DNA of 47,902 nt from an uncultured Acidobacteriota bacterium (GTDB lineage: Bacteria > Acidobacteriota > Vicinamibacteria > Fen-336), in the NCBI GenBank assembly GCA_902826455.1, contig CADEEV010000033.1, forward strand, positions 1-47,902. The letters run 5' to 3'. The number at the start of each line of letters is the position of its first letter. The stretch's first letter is position 1. Below, in pieces: positions 3,003 through 47,902 of this stretch. Made by a program: the position numbers and the translations under genes. The notes under the pieces are model-generated. The model saw only the letters and a list, made by a program, of their open reading frames with translations, searched no databases and was not told where the DNA came from.

Positions 3003-3039
3003 TTGACTCGAACCAAACACATGTTTTATACAGATGTTT
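3003..3039 (+). promoter_or_regulatory. Promoter and TetR-type operator of the efflux operon
   Basis: TTGACT at 3003-3008 and TATACA at 3027-3032 (18-base spacing) make a sigma70-like promoter. Positions 3015-3039 form a 25-bp imperfect palindrome with half-sites AAACA-N2-TGT and ACA-N2-TGTTT, covering the spacer and the -10 box. This is where a TetR-family repressor would be expected to bind, and a TetR gene closes the operon. Transcription would begin only a few bases before the ATG at 3043. The site is markedly AT-rich against its surroundings. The operator also sits beside the divergent protease promoter and may affect it. Confidence 0.7.
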
Positions 3040-3042
3040 CAC

Positions 3043-4089
3043 ATGGACAAGAACAGACGCCTCCTCCTCGTCGCCCTCGTCGCCCTGGCCGTCGTCGGCT
3101 ATCTCGCCCTCGCTCACCTCCGCCCGAAGCACCTCGTGCTCACTGGCATCGTCACCACGAACGACGTGATCGTCAGCCCCCAGGTCGCGGGGCAGCTCGG
3201 CGAGCTGCTGGTCGCGGAAGGCGACGCCGTCAAGAAGGGCCAGCGCCTCGCCGTCATCGTGCCCGACGAGCTGCGGGCCGAGAGCGCCTACTACGCGAGG
3301 AGCGCCGCGGGCGTCACCTCCCAGGTGCGCCAGTCGGAGGCCGAGCTGCGCTACCAGGAGCGCCAGAGCGTCGAGCAGATCCGCGAGGCCGAGTCGGCGC
3401 TGGCGGCGAGCGAGGAGGAGGCGAAGGCCGCCGGGGCCGACCTCGAGCGGGCCCGTCTGACCTGGGAGCGCGACCGCGACCTCGGGAAGCAGGGCGTCGT
3501 CTCGGCCCAGGACCTCGATGCCTCGCGCACCGCGACCGACGCGGCCCGGGCCCGCAAGGCGGCCCTCGACAAGCAGGTCGACGCCCAGCGCGCCTCCCTG
3601 GCCCTGGCCCACGCCACGGCCGAGCAGGTGTCGATGAAGCGCAGCCAGCTCGCCACGAGCCAGGCCGAGCAGGAGGCGGCCCAGGCCCAGGCGACCCGCG
3701 CCGACGTGCGCCTCGCCTACACCGAGCTGCGCGCCCCGATCGACGGTGTCGTGGACGTGCGGGCGGCCCGCGCCGGCGAGTATCTCAACCCGGGCCAGGC
3801 CGTGCTCAGCCTCGTCGACCCCGACGACCTGTGGGTGCGCATCGACGTGGAGGAGAGCTACATCGACCGCGTCCGGGTGGGCGACACGGTCCCCGTGCGG
3901 CTGCCCTCGGGTGACACGCGGGACGGCAAGGTCGTCTACCGCGGCGTCGACGCCGCCTACGCGACCCAGCGCGACGTGAGCCGCACCAAGCGCGACATCC
4001 GCACCTTCGAGGTCCGCCTCAAGCTCGACAACGCCGACCGCCGCCTCGCCCTCGGCATGACCGCGTACGCGCTGCTCACGGTGCGATGA
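3043..4089 (+). CDS. HlyD-family membrane fusion protein of an ABC efflux pump
   Basis: A 348-residue periplasmic adaptor. One N-terminal membrane anchor (about residues 5-22) is followed by a first lipoyl half (VIVSPQVAGQLGELLV), a long alpha-helical hairpin rich in Glu, Ala and Gln (about 85-225), then the second lipoyl half and beta-barrel (LRAPIDGVVDVR onward). Its role is to link the inner-membrane ABC transporter to an outer-membrane channel. An ATG at 3034 would add three residues but lies inside the operator; ATG 3043 is preferred. Gene order (adaptor, ATPase, permease, CecR-like regulator) resembles the E. coli ybhGFSR-cecR system. The stop overlaps the next start by 4 bases. Confidence 0.9.
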   Translation: MDKNRRLLLVALVALAVVGYLALAHLRPKHLVLTGIVTTNDVIVSPQVAGQLGELLVAEGDAVKKGQRLAVIVPDELRAESAYYARSAAGVTSQVRQSEAELRYQERQSVEQIREAESALAASEEEAKAAGADLERARLTWERDRDLGKQGVVSAQDLDASRTATDAARARKAALDKQVDAQRASLALAHATAEQVSMKRSQLATSQAEQEAAQAQATRADVRLAYTELRAPIDGVVDVRAARAGEYLNPGQAVLSLVDPDDLWVRIDVEESYIDRVRVGDTVPVRLPSGDTRDGKVVYRGVDAAYATQRDVSRTKRDIRTFEVRLKLDNADRRLALGMTAYALLTVR

Positions 4090-5075
4090 GCGCCATCGAC
4101 GTCCGGCAGATCGTCAAGAAGTTCGGCGACTTCACCGCCGTTGGCGGCGTCTCGTTCGGCGTCGAGCCCGGCGAGATCTTCGGCCTGCTCGGTCCCAACG
4201 GCGCGGGAAAGTCGACGCTGATCCGCATGCTCACGACACTGCTGGTTCCCACGGCGGGCACGGCCCTCGTCAACGGCTTCGACATCGTTGAACGGCCCGA
4301 CGACGTGCGGCGGGCGATCGGCGTCATCCCCCAGGCGATGACCAGCGACCTCGAGCTGTCCGTGGAGGAGAACCTCTCGATCTTCGGCAAGCTCTACGGC
4401 GTGCCCCGCGCGAAGCGCGAGCGCCTGATCGGCGAGCTCCTCGCGGCGGTCGAGCTCACCCAGTGGCGCGACGCGCCCGTCAAGAACCTGTCGGGCGGCA
4501 TGCGGCGCCGGGTCGAGATCGCGCGGGGCCTCGTCCACGAGCCCCAGATCTTCTTCCTCGACGAGCCCACGACCGGCCTCGATCCCGTCTCGCGGGTGGC
4601 GGTGTGGGGGATGCTGAAGAGGGTGAAGGCCGAGCGCGGCCTCACCGTCCTGCTCACGACCCACTACATGGACGAGGCCGACAAGCTCTGCGACCGCATC
4701 GCGATCGTGGACCACGGCGAGCTCAAGGCCCTCGACACGCCCCACAAGCTGAAGGCGTCGATCCCCGGCAGGAACGTGCTCGAGGCGAGCTTCGCCGACG
4801 CCCCCGCGGGCTGGCGCGAGCGGGTCGCGGGCCTGCCGGAGGTCGAAGAGGTGAGCGGCGAGGGCGAGCTGTACCGGATCGCGACACGGAGCGGTCCCGC
4901 CACGACCCTCGCGCTGATGCAGGCGGCCGCGAGCGCCGGCGTCACGGTGCTGTCCCTCTCGGTGCAGAGCACCACCCTCGACGACGTCTTCGTCCACTAC
5001 GCGGGCCGCAACCTGCGCGACGCGCTCCAGGACGCGAGCCCGCTGGATCGCGGCTTCATGATGCGGAGGGGCTAG
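4086..5075 (+). CDS. ABC transporter ATP-binding protein (ABC-2 drug-efflux type)
   Basis: A 329-residue ATPase with a single nucleotide-binding domain. Walker A is GPNGAGKST (about residues 37-45), the signature is LSGGMRRR, Walker B is IFFLDEPTTGLD, and the H-loop is TTHYMDEAD. The C-terminal 90 residues form the regulatory extension usual in drug/antibiotic ATPases of the YbhF/CcmA type. It powers export through the permease encoded just downstream, probably as a homodimer since only one ATPase and one permease are present. Its ATG overlaps the adaptor stop (ATGA). Confidence 0.93.
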   Translation: MSAIDVRQIVKKFGDFTAVGGVSFGVEPGEIFGLLGPNGAGKSTLIRMLTTLLVPTAGTALVNGFDIVERPDDVRRAIGVIPQAMTSDLELSVEENLSIFGKLYGVPRAKRERLIGELLAAVELTQWRDAPVKNLSGGMRRRVEIARGLVHEPQIFFLDEPTTGLDPVSRVAVWGMLKRVKAERGLTVLLTTHYMDEADKLCDRIAIVDHGELKALDTPHKLKASIPGRNVLEASFADAPAGWRERVAGLPEVEEVSGEGELYRIATRSGPATTLALMQAAASAGVTVLSLSVQSTTLDDVFVHYAGRNLRDALQDASPLDRGFMMRRG

Positions 5076-5077
5076 CC

Positions 5078-6193
5078 ATGCAGCGGATGTGGGCGATCGT
5101 CGAGCGGGAGCTGCGGCGCTTCCGCCGCAGCCCGACCCTGATCGCGATGGCGATGGTCTCGCCGATCCTCCAGCTCATCGTCCTCGGCTACGCCTTCGGC
5201 GGCAACGTGAAGCACCTGCGGGTCGCGATCGTGGACCAGGACCACGGCGTGCCGGCCGTGCGGGTGCGCGAGATGGCCCAGGCCATCGCCTCCGGGGCGA
5301 AGACGATCGACACGATTCCGTACTCCGACGAAGGCCTCGCCTTGCGCGACCTGCGCGACGGCCACGTGAACGGGGTCCTCACCATCCCGCCCGACTTCTC
5401 GCGGCGGGTGCTCGAGGGACGCGCCCCGCGCCTCGCGCTCATCGAGGACAACACGGACAACTTCATCTCGGCGGCGCTGGCTGCGACCATGGGCGGCATG
5501 CTGGGCGTCTACAACCAGAAGCCCGCCACGTCCGCGCGGCTCACGGACCAGGCGAGCCTCGACGTGGTCGAGGTCTACCCCTACGTGCCGTACATCCAGT
5601 ACCTGCTCCCGGGCTCGGTGGTGATGTCGATCTTCATGATGGTGATGATCGGCGGAGGCATCATCTACATCGACGACAAGGCGCGCGGGCTCCACGAGGG
5701 CTACCTCGTGACGCCCATCTCGCGGCTCGAGCTGATCGGGGGCTTCAACCTGTCCGGCACCCTCAAGGCCGTCGTGGCCGGCATGTTCCTGGTCGTCGTG
5801 GGATCGCTGATCGCCGGCATCCCGAATCCCCTCGACCCCCTGCGCCTGGTGCGGCTCTTCGTCGTGGTGCTCGTGACCTCCTTCGCCCTCATCAGCATGA
5901 TGTTCCTGATGATGGTGCGGGTCTCGGACCCGCTCCTGCCGCGTGCGCTCTTCGGAGTGCTGAACACGATGCTCTACTTCCCGAGCGGGGCCGTGTACCC
6001 GCAGCAGGGCTTCCCGGCCTGGATGCAGGTGCTCGCGGCCGTCGATCCCTTCACCTACGCCGTCCACGCCCTGAAGTGCCTGCTGCTCAAGAACACCGGG
6101 TTCGGCGCGATCGCCTTCGACCTGTCCTTCCTCCTCGCGTTCTCGGTCGTGACCATGGGCATCGCGACGCGGCTCTTCCGGAGGACGCTGTGA
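5078..6193 (+). CDS. ABC-2 type transporter permease
   Basis: A 371-residue membrane protein. One transmembrane helix lies near the N-terminus (about 20-42), followed by a large periplasmic domain (about 45-170) and a cluster of five hydrophobic helices in the C-terminal half. This is the ABC2_membrane layout seen in YbhS/YbhR. A cytosolic loop with DDKARGLHEGYLVTP matches the conserved coupling-helix area of the family. A GGAGGGG Shine-Dalgarno precedes the ATG at 5078. With the preceding ATPase and HlyD adaptor it makes a complete efflux pump except for an outer-membrane channel, which might be the TolC-like protein at 12.5 kb or one outside the window. Its stop overlaps the regulator's GTG start. 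Confidence 0.92.
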   Translation: MQRMWAIVERELRRFRRSPTLIAMAMVSPILQLIVLGYAFGGNVKHLRVAIVDQDHGVPAVRVREMAQAIASGAKTIDTIPYSDEGLALRDLRDGHVNGVLTIPPDFSRRVLEGRAPRLALIEDNTDNFISAALAATMGGMLGVYNQKPATSARLTDQASLDVVEVYPYVPYIQYLLPGSVVMSIFMMVMIGGGIIYIDDKARGLHEGYLVTPISRLELIGGFNLSGTLKAVVAGMFLVVVGSLIAGIPNPLDPLRLVRLFVVVLVTSFALISMMFLMMVRVSDPLLPRALFGVLNTMLYFPSGAVYPQQGFPAWMQVLAAVDPFTYAVHALKCLLLKNTGFGAIAFDLSFLLAFSVVTMGIATRLFRRTL

Positions 6194-6837
6194 GGGACGC
6201 CGCCGCCTCGCGCGAGCGCATCCTGGCCGCCGCGGCCCGCCTGTTCTCCGAGCAGGGCCTGAAGCGCGTCACCGTCCGCGATATCTGCCGGGCGGCGAAG
6301 GTGAACGTGGCCGCGATCAACTACCACTTCGGCGACAAGCTGGGTCTCTACCAGGAGGTGCTGCAAGGCGCGATCGACGCGATGCGCGAGACCACCGAGG
6401 CCGCGCGCCGCGCCGGGGCGGGCCTGCCCGCGGAGGAGCAGCTGCGGCGCTACCTGACGCTGTTCGTCGGGCGCCTGCTCGCCGGAGGCCCCCAGATCCA
6501 CAAGCTGATCCACCGCGAGGTCCACGACCCGACCCCGGCCCTCGACCGCCTCGTCGACGAAGGGGTGCGGCCGCGCATCGACTACCTGAGCGGCCTCGTG
6601 GCCGAGATCACGGGCCTGCCGCGCCGCGACGAGCGCGTCCTGCGCAGCGTCTTCAGCATCCAGGCCCAGTCGGTCTCGGTCTTCCCGAACCCCGTGGCCG
6701 CGCGGCTCGGCTTCGTGGCGACGCCGGCCAGCGCCGAGTCCCTGGCCGCCCACATCGCGGACTTCTCCCTCGCGGGCCTGCGCGGCCTCAAGCGCTCGGG
6801 CGCCCGGAAGGGACGCCCCGGAGCCGTCTCCCGCTAG
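6190..6837 (+). CDS. TetR-family transcriptional regulator, CecR/CerR (DUF1956) type
   Basis: A 215-residue regulator. The N-terminal TetR helix-turn-helix occupies residues 8-55 (ILAAAARLFSEQG ... VNVAAINYHFGDK). The C-terminal half contains HKLIHREVHDPTPAL and the layout of the CerR-family ligand domain. The start is GTG at 6190, overlapping the permease stop (GTGA). Being the last gene of the operon and having a 25-bp palindrome over the operon promoter, it most likely represses its own operon until an effluxed compound binds. In E. coli the related CecR controls the ybhG operon; that parallel is established knowledge, and its transfer to this gene is inference. Its TAG shares CTAG with the convergent small gene. 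Confidence 0.9.
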   Translation: MRDAAASRERILAAAARLFSEQGLKRVTVRDICRAAKVNVAAINYHFGDKLGLYQEVLQGAIDAMRETTEAARRAGAGLPAEEQLRRYLTLFVGRLLAGGPQIHKLIHREVHDPTPALDRLVDEGVRPRIDYLSGLVAEITGLPRRDERVLRSVFSIQAQSVSVFPNPVAARLGFVATPASAESLAAHIADFSLAGLRGLKRSGARKGRPGAVSR

Positions 6838-7073
6838 TCCCTCCCCTGCGCCGCGAGCTGCGCCTTCTGCAGGCGCGGGTCGAGGGCGAGGGCGAAGCGG
6901 TGCAACGCCGCGGGATCGAGCGCCTCGAGCGCCAGGCGCTCCACCTGCGACAGCTCGAGCCCGCTCTCGATCAGTTCCGCGAGAGCCTGGCCCGGCGCCT
7001 GCCAGAAGCGCCGCCGCATGCCTTCGTCCGTGGCCAGACGGCCCAGGACCACCTCCACACCTCGATGCGACAT
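6834..7073 (-). CDS. Small NHLP-clan-like protein (Os1348-type), 79 residues
   Basis: An alpha-helical, soluble small protein beginning MSHRGVEVVLGRLATDEG and containing RFWQAPGQALAEL and LSQVERLALEALDPAALHRF. This arrangement (a short N-terminal helix, an 'F..P..AL.E' segment, an 'LS..E...L..LDP' helix) resembles the Os1348 family in the nitrile-hydratase-leader-peptide (NHLP) clan. Some members of that clan serve as leader-like precursors of modified peptides. No maturation enzyme gene is nearby, and the C-terminus lacks Cys or Thr/Ser-rich core residues, so a peptide-precursor role is doubtful. GGAGG lies 7 bases before the ATG. A sigma54-like promoter lies about 25 bases upstream. Function unknown. 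Confidence 0.65.
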   Translation of the reverse strand: MSHRGVEVVLGRLATDEGMRRRFWQAPGQALAELIESGLELSQVERLALEALDPAALHRFALALDPRLQKAQLAAQGRD

Positions 7074-7098
7074 CTCGAGACCTCCGCGTGCTCCACAT

Positions 7099-7114
7099 TC
7101 CACGGCGCGTGCCA
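7099..7114 (-). promoter_or_regulatory. Candidate sigma54 promoter of the NHLP-like gene
   Basis: Read on the minus strand: TGGCACGCGCCGTGGA. The -24 block TGGCACG matches the consensus fully. The -12 block is GTGGA against TTGCA, and the GG to GG spacing is the required 10 bases. The same 19-mer, extending to AATG, occurs upstream of the TolC-like gene at 12481. Confidence 0.5.
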
Positions 7115-7295
7115 GGCGGAGGTTCGGGCCGCCGTGTCGTCCCAGCTCGTTGCCCACGGGAGACTTGCAGGGACGAGGGCCGCAGCGGAGCGAGCCGTGG
7201 CGCCGAGCGCGGTCCTGGCCTGGTGGCTGCACAGCGCCAGTTGTGGCGTCCGAGGCCGCGCGTGGGCATGATCGGCGCGGGGCTCCGAGAGCGCG

Positions 7296-7331
7296 CGATG
7301 CGCCCGCGCCAAATTCCTCGATGCGCCCGCG
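7296..7331. repeat. Pair of 13-bp direct repeats CGATGCGCCCGCG
   Basis: The repeats lie at 7296-7308 and 7319-7331, with a period of 23 bp (about two helical turns). The nearer copy is about 50 bp upstream of the -24 element of the DUF4136 promoter. The two-turn spacing on one DNA face would suit a dimeric enhancer-binding protein. Function inferred only. Confidence 0.5.
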
Positions 7332-7377
7332 TCTCTCGTCACTTGAAGCGCGTCCAAGCGGTGTCGGGAGCGCGCCC

Positions 7378-7393
7378 TGGCACGAACCTTGGA
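7378..7393 (+). promoter_or_regulatory. Candidate sigma54 promoter of the DUF4136 gene
   Basis: TGGCACGAACCTTGGA: perfect -24 block TGGCACG, preceded by C as in the consensus, a correct 10-base GG to GG spacing, and TTGG in place of TTGC at -12. Transcription would start near 7404, leaving a leader of about 43 bases before ATG 7447. Confidence 0.6.
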
Positions 7394-7446
7394 GTCGGGG
7401 CCGGCCGCGACGCTTGGGTCGCGAGAGGAAGGCAGGGAGTTTCGAC

Positions 7447-7977
7447 ATGCGGATGACGGCGATGCTGACGGCGGCGTTCGGTCTCTTCGTGGCGGCGCAG
7501 GCGGGCGCCCAGAGCGTGACGTACGACTTCGACAAGAGCGCTTCGTTCGGGACGTTCAAGAGCTACGCGTGGGCCAGGGGCACGCCCGTGGCCGACACGT
7601 TCAACCACCAGCGCATCGTGAGCGCCCTCGACGCGCAGCTCGCGGCGAAAGGCCTCGTGAAGGCCGCCGAAGGCCAGGCCCCGGACGTTGTAGTCGCCTA
7701 CCACGCGATGTTCGACCAGGACGTCCAGGTGACGGGCTTCGCCTCGGGCTGGGGCGGCTTCGGGTTCGGCGGCACGCGCACGGGCTCCGCCCGCGCCGAG
7801 ACGATCCTGATCGGCACCCTCGTGGTCGACGTCGTGGAGCCGAAGACGAAGTCGATCGTGTGGCGCGGCGTCGCGACCAAGGAGATCGACCCCCGGGCCA
7901 GGCCGGAGAAGCGCGACAAGGAGATCCAGCGCGTCGCGGCGAAGCTCTTCAAGAACTACCCGCCGCAGGCGAAGTAG
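7447..7977 (+). CDS. DUF4136-domain secreted protein
   Basis: A 176-residue protein with a signal peptide (about residues 1-22, cleavage near AQAGAQS). The mature part begins VTYDFDKSASFGTFKSYAW, the hallmark opening of DUF4136, and continues with the conserved DVVVAYHA strand, a Gly-rich turn (GWGGFGFGG) and the WRGVATKEI segment near the C-terminus. Many DUF4136 proteins are lipoproteins, but this one has no lipobox Cys and is probably soluble in the periplasm. AGGGAG lies 8 bases before the ATG. A sigma54-like promoter lies about 60 bp upstream. It is convergent to the sigma54 activator pair. Molecular function is not known for the family. Confidence 0.88.
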   Translation: MRMTAMLTAAFGLFVAAQAGAQSVTYDFDKSASFGTFKSYAWARGTPVADTFNHQRIVSALDAQLAAKGLVKAAEGQAPDVVVAYHAMFDQDVQVTGFASGWGGFGFGGTRTGSARAETILIGTLVVDVVEPKTKSIVWRGVATKEIDPRARPEKRDKEIQRVAAKLFKNYPPQAK

Positions 7978-8004: not shown

Positions 8005-12305
<4,301 letters not shown>

Positions 12306-12312
12306 GAGCGGG

Positions 12313-12318
12313 ATTGTA
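12313..12318 (-). promoter_or_regulatory. -10 box TACAAT of the activator pair
   Basis: On the minus strand TACAAT is followed by 7 bases and the GTG start codon at 12305, so transcription would start at or next to the start codon. No convincing -35 hexamer is seen at the usual distance. Confidence 0.45.
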
Positions 12319-12352: not shown

Positions 12353-12368
12353 TCGCCAGGAGTGGCGA
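12353..12368. promoter_or_regulatory. 16-bp inverted repeat, possible regulator site
   Basis: TCGCCA-GGAG-TGGCGA lies between the activator pair and the TolC operon, about 115 bp upstream of the -24 element at 12481. That distance is usual for enhancer-binding protein sites. It could equally be an operator for activator autoregulation. Assignment is speculative. Confidence 0.35.
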
Positions 12369-12480: not shown

Positions 12481-12496
12481 TGGCACGCGCCGTGGA
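12481..12496 (+). promoter_or_regulatory. Candidate sigma54 promoter of the TolC/RND operon
   Basis: TGGCACGCGCCGTGGA, with a perfect -24 TGGCACG, a 10-base spacing and GTGGA at -12. It is identical over 19 bases to the element upstream of the NHLP-like gene. Transcription would start near 12507, leaving about 34 bases to the ATG at 12541. Confidence 0.45.
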
Positions 12497-12540
12497 ATGA
12501 CGGCGCGCGGCGGCACCACGTCGCTGAAAGGAACCCCCGG

Positions 12541-13884
12541 ATGCGAGGCTTGTTGAAGCGGACGGCGTTCATGCTCCTGACCGCGGTCGCGGTCGCGGCC
12601 GGGGGCCAGGAGCCCGCCCAGGACGCGCTCACCCTCGACGACGCCGTGCGCCTCGCCCTCGAGCGCAACCGCGGCCTCGCGGTGGCGGCCCTGGGCGTCG
12701 AGCGGGCCGGGCGCAAGGTGGACGCGGCGCGCACCAAGCGCCTGCCGAGCCTGCAGGTCGAGGGGCTCGCCGGCACGACGCTCAACACGATCGAGGTGTC
12801 GTTCCCGACGGGCGCCTTCGGCGACTATCCCGGCACGGGGCCGATCCCGGCCGAGGACACGATCGTCAAGGCGCCGCGCACGCTGACGGGGACGGTCACG
12901 GCCACCGTCGCGCAGCCGATCAGCCAGCTCCACAAGATCGGCCTCAACACGAAGCTCTCCGAGCTCTCCCGGGACGTGGAGCGGCAGAAGCTGCGCGAGG
13001 AGCGCGCGGCCGTGGCGGCCGACGTGCGGCGCGCGTACTACGCGCTCCTGCAGCTCACGAGCGCGCGCGCGGCGCGCCGCGAGCAGGCGGAGACCTGCCG
13101 CGAGCTCGAGCGCGTGGTGGGCGAGCAGGTGCGCCGCGAGGTGGCCCTCGTCGGCGACGGCCTCGACGTGAAGGCGGAGCTGGCCGAGGCGGAGTACGAG
13201 CTCGCCCGCGTCGAGGGCGACCTCGCGACGGCCCGCGAGCGCCTCAACGAGCTCATGGGTCGCGATCTCGACGCGCCGCTCAGCGTCGTCGGAACCCCGG
13301 GCCCGAGCCTCGAGGAGGTGGATCTCACGGCGGCCCAGCGCTCGGCCGCCGAGCGCCGCCCGGACCTCGCCCAGGCCCGCCTCGGCATCGAGCAGGCCGA
13401 CACCGATCGCCGTCTGAAGAAGGCCGAGTCGATCCCCGACGTGAGCCTCGCGCTCTCGTACTACTCGTTCTTCAACGTGGACCTGCTGCCGCGCACGATC
13501 GCGCAGGCCGGCCTGCAGGTGAAGTGGGAGCCCTTCGACTGGGGCCGCCGCGGCAAGGAGCGCGCGGAGAAGGAGCTGCAGCTGGAGCAGGCGAAGGCCA
13601 CGGAGCGCCGCGCGCGCGACCTGGCCCGGATCGACGTGGGCCAGCGCTTCCGCGACCTCCACGAGGCGCGGCTGCTGGTGAGCGCCGAGGAGCTCTCGCG
13701 CGACGCGGCCCGCGAGAAGCTGCGCGTCGTCCGCGAGCGCCACGAGCGCGAGGCGGCGCTCTTCAAGGACCTGCTGTCGGCCCAGGCCCAGGCGAGCGTC
13801 GCCCAGGCCGAGTACGACCAGGCCCTCATGACGTACTGGACGGCGAAGGCGGACTTCCAGAAAGCCATTGGCGAGGAGCAGTGA
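12541..13884 (+). CDS. TolC-family outer-membrane efflux protein
   Basis: A 447-residue OEP/TolC-family protein. A signal peptide covers about residues 1-22. Two internally similar halves follow, each with long amphipathic helices (about 130-230 and 335-440) and the 'DA..LAL.RN' opening motif ([14 protein letters not shown], residues 30-43) typical of the family. It should form the trimeric outer-membrane channel for the adaptor and RND pump encoded next. AAAGGA precedes the ATG by about 8 bases. The gene is one base away from its downstream neighbour. A sigma54-like promoter lies about 45-60 bp upstream, and sigma54 activators are encoded divergently. Confidence 0.9.
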
Positions 13885-47109: not shown

Positions 47110-47125
47110 TGGCACGTTCGTTGCT
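47110..47125 (+). promoter_or_regulatory. Sigma54 promoter of the DUF6600 gene
   Basis: TGGCACGTTCGTTGCT matches the sigma54 consensus TGGCACG-N4-TTGCW at every conserved position, with the exact 10-base spacing between GG (47111-47112) and GC (47123-47124). Transcription would begin near 47137, giving a leader of about 85 bases to ATG 47222. Confidence 0.82.
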
Positions 47126-47221: not shown

Positions 47222-47902
47222 ATGCGCCGGACACTTCAGATCCTGACGCTCGCAGGCGTCGCCGGTTGGTCGCTCCTCGGCGCGCGCGCCGAGGCGCAGT
47301 CCTACCCGCAGTCCCCTTACGACAACCGCTACGACGATCGCTACGACAACCGCTACGACCGTCAGATCGACGAGAGCTTCTTCTACCAGAACCTCTCGCC
47401 GTACGGCGACTGGGTCGAGATGCCGGAGTACGGCTGGGCCTTCGCGCCCCGCGTCGACTACGGCTGGCGTCCCTACACCCGCGGCCAATGGATCAACACC
47501 GACGACGGCTGGTACTGGGACTCGGACGAGCGATTCGGCTGGGCCACGTACCACTACGGCCGCTGGGTGAACGACCGGCGCTACGGCTGGATCTGGGTGC
47601 CGGGCACGGAGTGGGCTCCGGCCTGGGTGTCCTGGCGTCACGGCGACGGCTACACCGGCTGGGCGCCCCTGCCGCCGCGCGCGCAATTCCAGGCGCACAT
47701 CGGCCTGAACATCGGCGGCCTGGACATCGACGCCTACATCGGGCGCGACGACTATTCCTTCGTGCCCGATCGCTACCTGGTCGAACGCGGCGTCTACCAG
47801 CGCGTCGTGCCGCCGACCCAGAACGTCACGATCATCAACAACACGACCAACATCACGAACTACACCGTAGTGAACCAGCGCGTCGTCAATCGGGGCATCG
47901 AC
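47222..47902 (+). CDS. Exported Trp/Tyr-rich DUF6600-type protein, 3' end cut by the window
   Basis: 227 codons are visible and the frame runs off the window. A signal peptide covers about residues 1-26 (ending ARAEAQS). A short repeat RYDDRYDNRYDR follows, then the tryptophan-rich module SPYGDWVEMPEYGWAF, YGWRPYTRGQWINT, DGWYWDSDERFGWATYHYGRW, YGWIWVPGTEWAPAWVSWR and GWAPLPP, which is the DUF6600 pattern of exported proteins. The visible end is Asn/Thr/Val-rich (NNTTNITNYTVVNQRV). AGAGAGG lies about 7 bases upstream. A sigma54 promoter lies about 100 bp upstream. The role is unknown; a cell-surface or envelope location is likely. Confidence 0.85.
   Translation, partial: MRRTLQILTLAGVAGWSLLGARAEAQSYPQSPYDNRYDDRYDNRYDRQIDESFFYQNLSPYGDWVEMPEYGWAFAPRVDYGWRPYTRGQWINTDDGWYWDSDERFGWATYHYGRWVNDRRYGWIWVPGTEWAPAWVSWRHGDGYTGWAPLPPRAQFQAHIGLNIGGLDIDAYIGRDDYSFVPDRYLVERGVYQRVVPPTQNVTIINNTTNITNYTVVNQRVVNRGID

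Follow-up and report, generated by a model that had tools for sequence, protein, structure and literature searches.

A gapped dyad, rather than a 13-bp direct repeat, as candidate activator site between divergent sigma54-like promoters in an Acidobacteriota genome

What might control the two genes that face away from each other across positions 7074-7446 of this contig, and is the pair of 13-bp repeats lying between them the responsible element? The window, by which we mean the whole 47,902-nt stretch of DNA that was analysed, belongs to the genome of an uncultured Acidobacteriota bacterium (5.26 Mb in 108 contigs), and its intergenic stretch 7074-7446 divides an Os1348-family NHLP-clan gene on the minus strand from a DUF4136 gene on the plus strand. 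The original prediction held that the repeats are the paired binding sites of a sigma54 activator and that they could serve both divergent promoters. The two genes are the following.

6834-7073, minus strand: Os1348-family NHLP-clan peptide gene, 79 aa (NF038399, 51.2 bits, cut-off 40)
7447-7977, plus strand: DUF4136 protein gene, 176 aa (PF13590, E 2e-32)

The Pfam relative PF14407 scores 24.4 on the NHLP-clan gene, below its cut-off of 48. Further along the window, tolC (OEP family, ATG at 12541) is divergent from the second of two activator genes, and HlyD-type and RND-type genes lie behind it in the same orientation. The genome has one PF00309 match, RpoN (E 4.3e-16). At 3034-6837 lies a row of HlyD-like, ABC ATPase-like, ABC permease-like and CecR-like TetR genes, which we take to resemble E. 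coli ybhGFSR-cecR; the TetR gene, the sole gene of the row tested, has a CecR_C/TetR_N match.

Both promoters on which the prediction was built can be found in the sequence: the sigma54-like site at 7378, and a divergent one for the NHLP-clan gene at 7114-7099 on the opposite strand. Two sites of the same kind lie before tolC and on contig C6.

7378-7393, plus strand: sigma54-like promoter TGGCACGAACCTTGGA before the DUF4136 gene, with TGGA, not TGCW, at -12
7097-7114 (16-mer 7114-7099), minus strand: sigma54-like promoter TGGCACGCGCCGTGGAAT before the NHLP-clan gene
12481-12498, plus strand: sigma54-like promoter TGGCACGCGCCGTGGAAT before tolC
contig C6, 38352-38369: sigma54-like promoter TGGCACGCGCCGTGGAAT before a TerB-like gene

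All four carry TGGCACG at -24 and, at the correct spacing, TGGA at -12, where the sigma54 consensus has TGC according to excerpts of PMC4641369 and PMC12316311; because TGGA stands in place of TGC(W), sigma54 membership is incomplete and we call these promoters sigma54-like. Three of the four (NHLP, tolC and C6) are identical over 18 bases, and a genome search with TGGCACGCGCCGTGGAAT allowing up to 3 mismatches returned these 3 exact copies, no sites with 1-2 mismatches and 12 sites with 3; the control likewise totalled 12. The DUF4136 site retains TGGCACG and TGGA and differs from TGGCACGCGCCGTGGAAT outside them. Since the general pattern TGGCACGN5TGSW occurs at 23 sites in the genome versus 34 for the reversed control, most of the 23 need not be promoters. 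The four 16-mers end 25, 42, 44 and 53 bp before start codons. The gene downstream of the shared promoter on C6 (7377-8405 of locus L089, with the promoter and a dyad upstream) has a weak TerB match, E 3e-4, below the family cut-off.

Might the 18-bp TGGCACGCGCCGTGGAAT instead be the operator of another regulator, with the dyad described below unrelated to it or a second operator? The uniform TGGA at -12, the three exact copies without any near copies, and the lack of genome-wide enrichment of TGGCACGN5TGSW would all fit such a reading. Against it, the site at 7378 shares TGGCACG and TGGA at sigma54 spacing yet diverges elsewhere, the 16-mers end at the short distances from start codons given above, a consensus scan picked up no sigma70-type promoter in either window region, two sigma54 activators adjoin, and the three TGGCACGCGCCGTGGAAT copies have, by eye, no downstream box in common. 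We consider an operator unlikely. The same missing downstream box (by eye) led us to reject an ECF-type reading of the 18-bp element, with TGGAAT as its -35.

Which proteins would act at such promoters? Two sigma54 activators had been placed next door, and the sequence bears this out.

8005-10137, minus strand: sigma54 activator 1 (GAF, Sigma54_activat, Fis-type HTH), ATG inferred at 10137
10137-12305, minus strand: sigma54 activator 2 (GAF, Sigma54_activat, Fis-type HTH), GTG inferred at 12305

The inferred ATG of activator 1 overlaps the stop codon of activator 2 (ATGA), and the open frame of activator 2 continues upstream to 12788. Both proteins have PF00158 and PF02954 matches, and GAFTGA can be read in their translations, the features by which enhancer-binding proteins are recognised. 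Compared in 100-bp steps, 8105-8904 of activator 1 and 10240-11039 of activator 2, the AAA+/HTH half, are 98-100% identical in DNA; outside this tract identity falls to 89% in the step from 8005 and to at most 78% from 8905 on, and the GAF halves are 55% identical in protein. Across 50 residues the two HTH segments share 96% identity; the closest other one in this genome reaches 50%, and only the two window activators carry this HTH. Near-identical 3' halves joined to diverged GAF sensors suggest gene conversion over the ATPase/DNA-binding half, and a single DNA-binding specificity with two sensors would be the simplest reading; with two GAF sensors and a shared DNA-binding half, two sensors would thus feed one target set. 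Activator 2 has a TACAAT 7 nt ahead of its inferred GTG (12303-12318, minus strand; by eye); this element, which the consensus scan did not pick up, suggests a leaderless transcript.

Is the 13-bp repeat the site at which these activators bind? Its existence and place are as predicted.

7296-7308, plus strand: 13-bp direct repeat copy 1, CGATGCGCCCGCG, centre at about -102 from the inferred start site of the DUF4136 promoter
7319-7331, plus strand: 13-bp direct repeat copy 2, CGATGCGCCCGCG, centre at about -79 from the same inferred start site

Both copies are exact, they begin 23 bp apart, and they lie 46-82 bp before 7378-7393, upstream of TGGCACGAACCTTGGA as had been described. The claim that they sit two turns apart on one face of the helix holds only approximately, 23 bp being about 2.2 turns at 10.5 bp per turn and two turns being 21 bp. 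A tandem duplication of a 23-bp unit was rejected, as by eye the remaining 10 bp of both units differ. When the 332-bp stretch 7115-7446 was dinucleotide-shuffled 5000 times, 7 of the shuffles contained an exact 13-bp direct repeat within 60 bp; for the entire window it was 15 of 60. The latter is the fairer figure, because the whole window had been scanned when the repeat was noticed. With up to 2 mismatches, CGATGCGCCCGCG has 17 matches in the window against a shuffle mean of 18.3, and so no excess. Genome-wide there are 8 exact copies, two of them the pair at 7296 and 7319, versus 5 for the reversed control.

The check that had been put forward for an activator site was whether the repeat comes back near other sigma54 promoters, and here the outcome was negative. 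The 6 other genomic copies of CGATGCGCCCGCG sit inside long ORFs (ORFs taken by length, without a check of coding signal), and none of the 6 loci around them (2.5-3 kb) has a sigma54-like site by the pattern used. Conversely, none of seven 6-8-bp cores of the repeat is found in the DNA preceding the tolC and C6 promoters (265-266 bp). That the repeats are activator binding sites is very doubtful in our judgement: they are real, exact and intergenic, at positions near -79 and -102 and rare in local shuffles, but they are absent at the tolC and C6 promoters and near other sigma54-like sites, their period is not two full turns, such a repeat is common in whole-window shuffles, and they have no dyad symmetry, which dimeric Fis-type HTHs normally need. 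Most likely the 13-bp repeat is a product of chance or at most an accessory element, and not the activator site. The accompanying idea that one element serves both divergent promoters fared differently: the sequence offers support for it, with an element other than the 13-bp repeat.

That element looks like a gapped dyad, GCCAG-N2-GTGGC, a better candidate for the activator site than the repeat.

7236-7247: candidate UAS dyad GCCAG-TT-GTGGC, midway between the divergent NHLP and DUF4136 promoters
12355-12366: candidate UAS dyad GCCAG-GA-GTGGC, between activator 2 (inferred start) and tolC

The first dyad, in its 14-bp form CGCCAGTTGTGGCG at 7235-7248, is separated from the DUF4136 promoter TGG by 130 bp and from the NHLP promoter TGG by 121 bp, its centre lying about 162 bp upstream of the inferred DUF4136 start and about 154 bp upstream of the inferred NHLP start. 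The second (14-bp form CGCCAGGAGTGGCG at 12354-12367) lies 114 bp ahead of the tolC promoter TGG, at about -147. On C6 the 12-bp core GCCAGGAGTGGC is present with the outer bases missing, 90 bp before the promoter TGG and at about -122; this copy overlaps a hairpin directly after a MerR-like gene (both by eye), which counts against an enhancer reading there. Upstream activating sequences are placed at least 100 bp upstream in an excerpt of PMC4641369. The dyad was first noticed by eye in printed upstream sequences, as the 14-bp form CGCCA-N4-TGGCG, and was cut to the 12-bp core after C6, a contig picked for its promoter alone, had been viewed; because the core was shortened after this inspection, C6 lends support and is no clean prediction.

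How far does the dyad stand out from chance? An exact GCCAN4TGGC occurs within 400 bp upstream of 4 of the 23 TGGCACGN5TGSW sites, at 90, 114, 121 and 130 bp from the TGG, and all four are of the TGGA type, to which 7 of the 23 belong (hypergeometric 0.004). The window and 22 further loci of this genome together contain 57 distinct TGGCAC sites, and only these four are preceded by the dyad at a distance of 60-150 bp. Genome-wide, dyad-N105..135-TGGCAC has 4 matches, three in the window and the fourth on contig C80, versus 4 for the reversed control, the C80 match not being among the 23 sites; dyad-N74..104-TGGCAC has 1 match, the C6 promoter, versus 4 for the control. A stricter dyad-promoter pattern gives 3 matches in this genome and none in the control, and in the other 192 genomes of the class 8 have 1 match each while 26 have reversed-control matches (manual count); it is thus in this genome, not across the class, that the combination is conspicuous.

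The dyad by itself is not enriched across the genome, GCCAGNNGTGGC occurring at 35 sites versus 77 for the reversed control and the 14-bp form at 20 places versus 31. In the window, the 14-bp form with up to 1 mismatch is likewise not enriched (5 versus a shuffle mean of 6.5), and exact GCCAN4TGGC is found 4 times against a shuffle mean of 1, the cores at 866 and 45398 having no such promoter there. Loci were available for 30 of the 35 GCCAGNNGTGGC sites: 26 are in coding-like ORFs, one of them with a weak sigma54-like match downstream, and 4 are noncoding, three facing the promoters named above and one, on contig C7, facing none. The script had called 27 of the 30 coding-like; the tolC site was recounted as intergenic, since it precedes the inferred activator 2 start.

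The three regions share a single 5+5 word (gap 0-6), GCCAG-N2-GTGGC; after shuffling, some 5+5 gapped word is shared by all three in 82 of 2000 cases and a dyad-like one (gap 0-12) in 48 of 4000. In sets of 2000 shuffles, all three regions have a 4-bp-arm dyad in common 293 times, both window regions have a 5-bp-arm dyad in common 90 times, and the 12-bp core falls in the C6 region by chance 16 times. These unprejudiced tests are weaker, and what speaks for the dyad as a putative activator site is promoter, spacing and dyad taken together.

Where does this leave the repeat? It could have an accessory role at the DUF4136 promoter alone, such as binding a repressor or an anti-activator within an enhancer-promoter loop. 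Its position between the dyad and the DUF4136 promoter would suit such a role, as would its absence from the tolC and C6 promoters. No regulator has been linked with the repeat, and we hold the role to be quite improbable. It would be compatible with the dyad as enhancer, the explanation that we prefer.

The intergenic stretch 7074-7446 could then be viewed as a divergent, enhancer-dependent control region with one dyad between two promoters. The activators would bind the dyads and then drive sigma54-RNA polymerase through DNA looping, the 7236-7247 dyad serving the divergent NHLP/DUF4136 pair and the 12355-12366 dyad serving tolC, with possible control of activator 2 as well. The targets of the two sensors would be the NHLP peptide, the DUF4136 protein, TolC/HlyD/RND efflux and the TerB-like gene. 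We think it somewhat more probable than its opposite that the activators bind dyads centred about 122-162 bp before the inferred start sites and contact sigma54-polymerase through a DNA loop. What can be read directly in the DNA is the elements and how they are spaced; binding, looping, the use of sigma54 and the signals we infer. We read the locus as what may be a small enhancer-dependent regulon around an efflux-pump cluster, unusual for the TGGA at -12. A bolder extension, to which we give a minor chance, is that gene conversion has kept the ATPase/DNA-binding halves of the activators identical as the sensors diverged, making a single private enhancer the meeting point of two signals, with the TGGA -12 setting the regulon apart from the cell's other sigma54 promoters. 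A non-recurring repeat is in this way replaced by a testable enhancer motif, with a small regulon and two likely activators named, and the TGGA -12, if real, would be a natural test of regulon separation through sigma54 promoter recognition.

This arrangement is reminiscent of known sigma54/RpoN systems with enhancer-binding proteins and upstream activating sequences in its -24 TGGCACG, its spacing, the nearby activators with Sigma54_activat and Fis-type HTH domains, and a dyad about 90-130 bp before the promoter. Unlike in those systems, the -12 element is TGGA in all four sites and not TTGCW, and the locus is known from sequence alone. An excerpt of PMC3162934 describes sigma54 targets as of the envelope or exterior kind, and the targets here are alike. 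As with mphR and mphKLMNOP (PMC3063778), an activator is divergent from its putative targets, here activator 2 and tolC with the dyad between them; the genes there are for phenol and here for efflux, and here there are two activators with one DNA-binding half and a second divergent target pair sharing one dyad. The FlrA-type site GTCA-N6-TGGC, as given in an excerpt of PMC4641369, is likewise a short gapped dyad upstream of sigma54 promoters, although its half-site and spacer differ from those of the dyad here.

Does the region have counterparts elsewhere? The searches of other genomes given below found no orthologous region, and a plasmid search found no relatives. DUF4136 relatives, 25-48% identical, occur in 12 of 59 other genomes; the survey comprised 26 loci, including the window itself, a second gene of this genome and one locus without upstream DNA, and in two locus pairs both entries are the same gene. 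Upstream of these relatives, no TGGCAC-type site was found outside the window, and there was one loose match, CGGAGTGTCCTCTGGT. Scans of named genomes with the DUF4136 protein and the GAF half of activator 2 returned no relative. In six stretches from genomes of the family with related HTHs (48-59% identical), no sigma54-like site is accompanied by an exact dyad. Other genomes of the class, chiefly those of one other family, encode double-GAF activators with about 43-50% identity; ten such loci, two of them cut by contig ends, likewise lack an exact dyad at any sigma54-like site and contain no match to the window's NHLP, DUF4136, TolC, HlyD, RND or TetR proteins. A literature search found no paper combining any two of Os1348, NHLP and sigma-54, and a search with four written forms of the dyad found no bacterial paper, only an unrelated one about human retroviral repeats.

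Other sites of the sigma54 kind were seen in passing. Two sigma54-like sites on contig C3 (C3:63318 and C3:82125, or 5319 of locus L090 and 6125 of locus L091) stand 12-13 bp before the start codons of HlyD-like and ABC ATPase-like genes, which FtsX-like permease genes follow (names by eye), and the dyad is absent; FtsX-like permeases are linked with sigma54 in an excerpt of PMC12316311. In the window itself, a full-consensus sigma54 site, TGGCACGTTCGTTGCT, lies at 47110-47125 before an open frame with DNRYD-type repeats (47318-47360).
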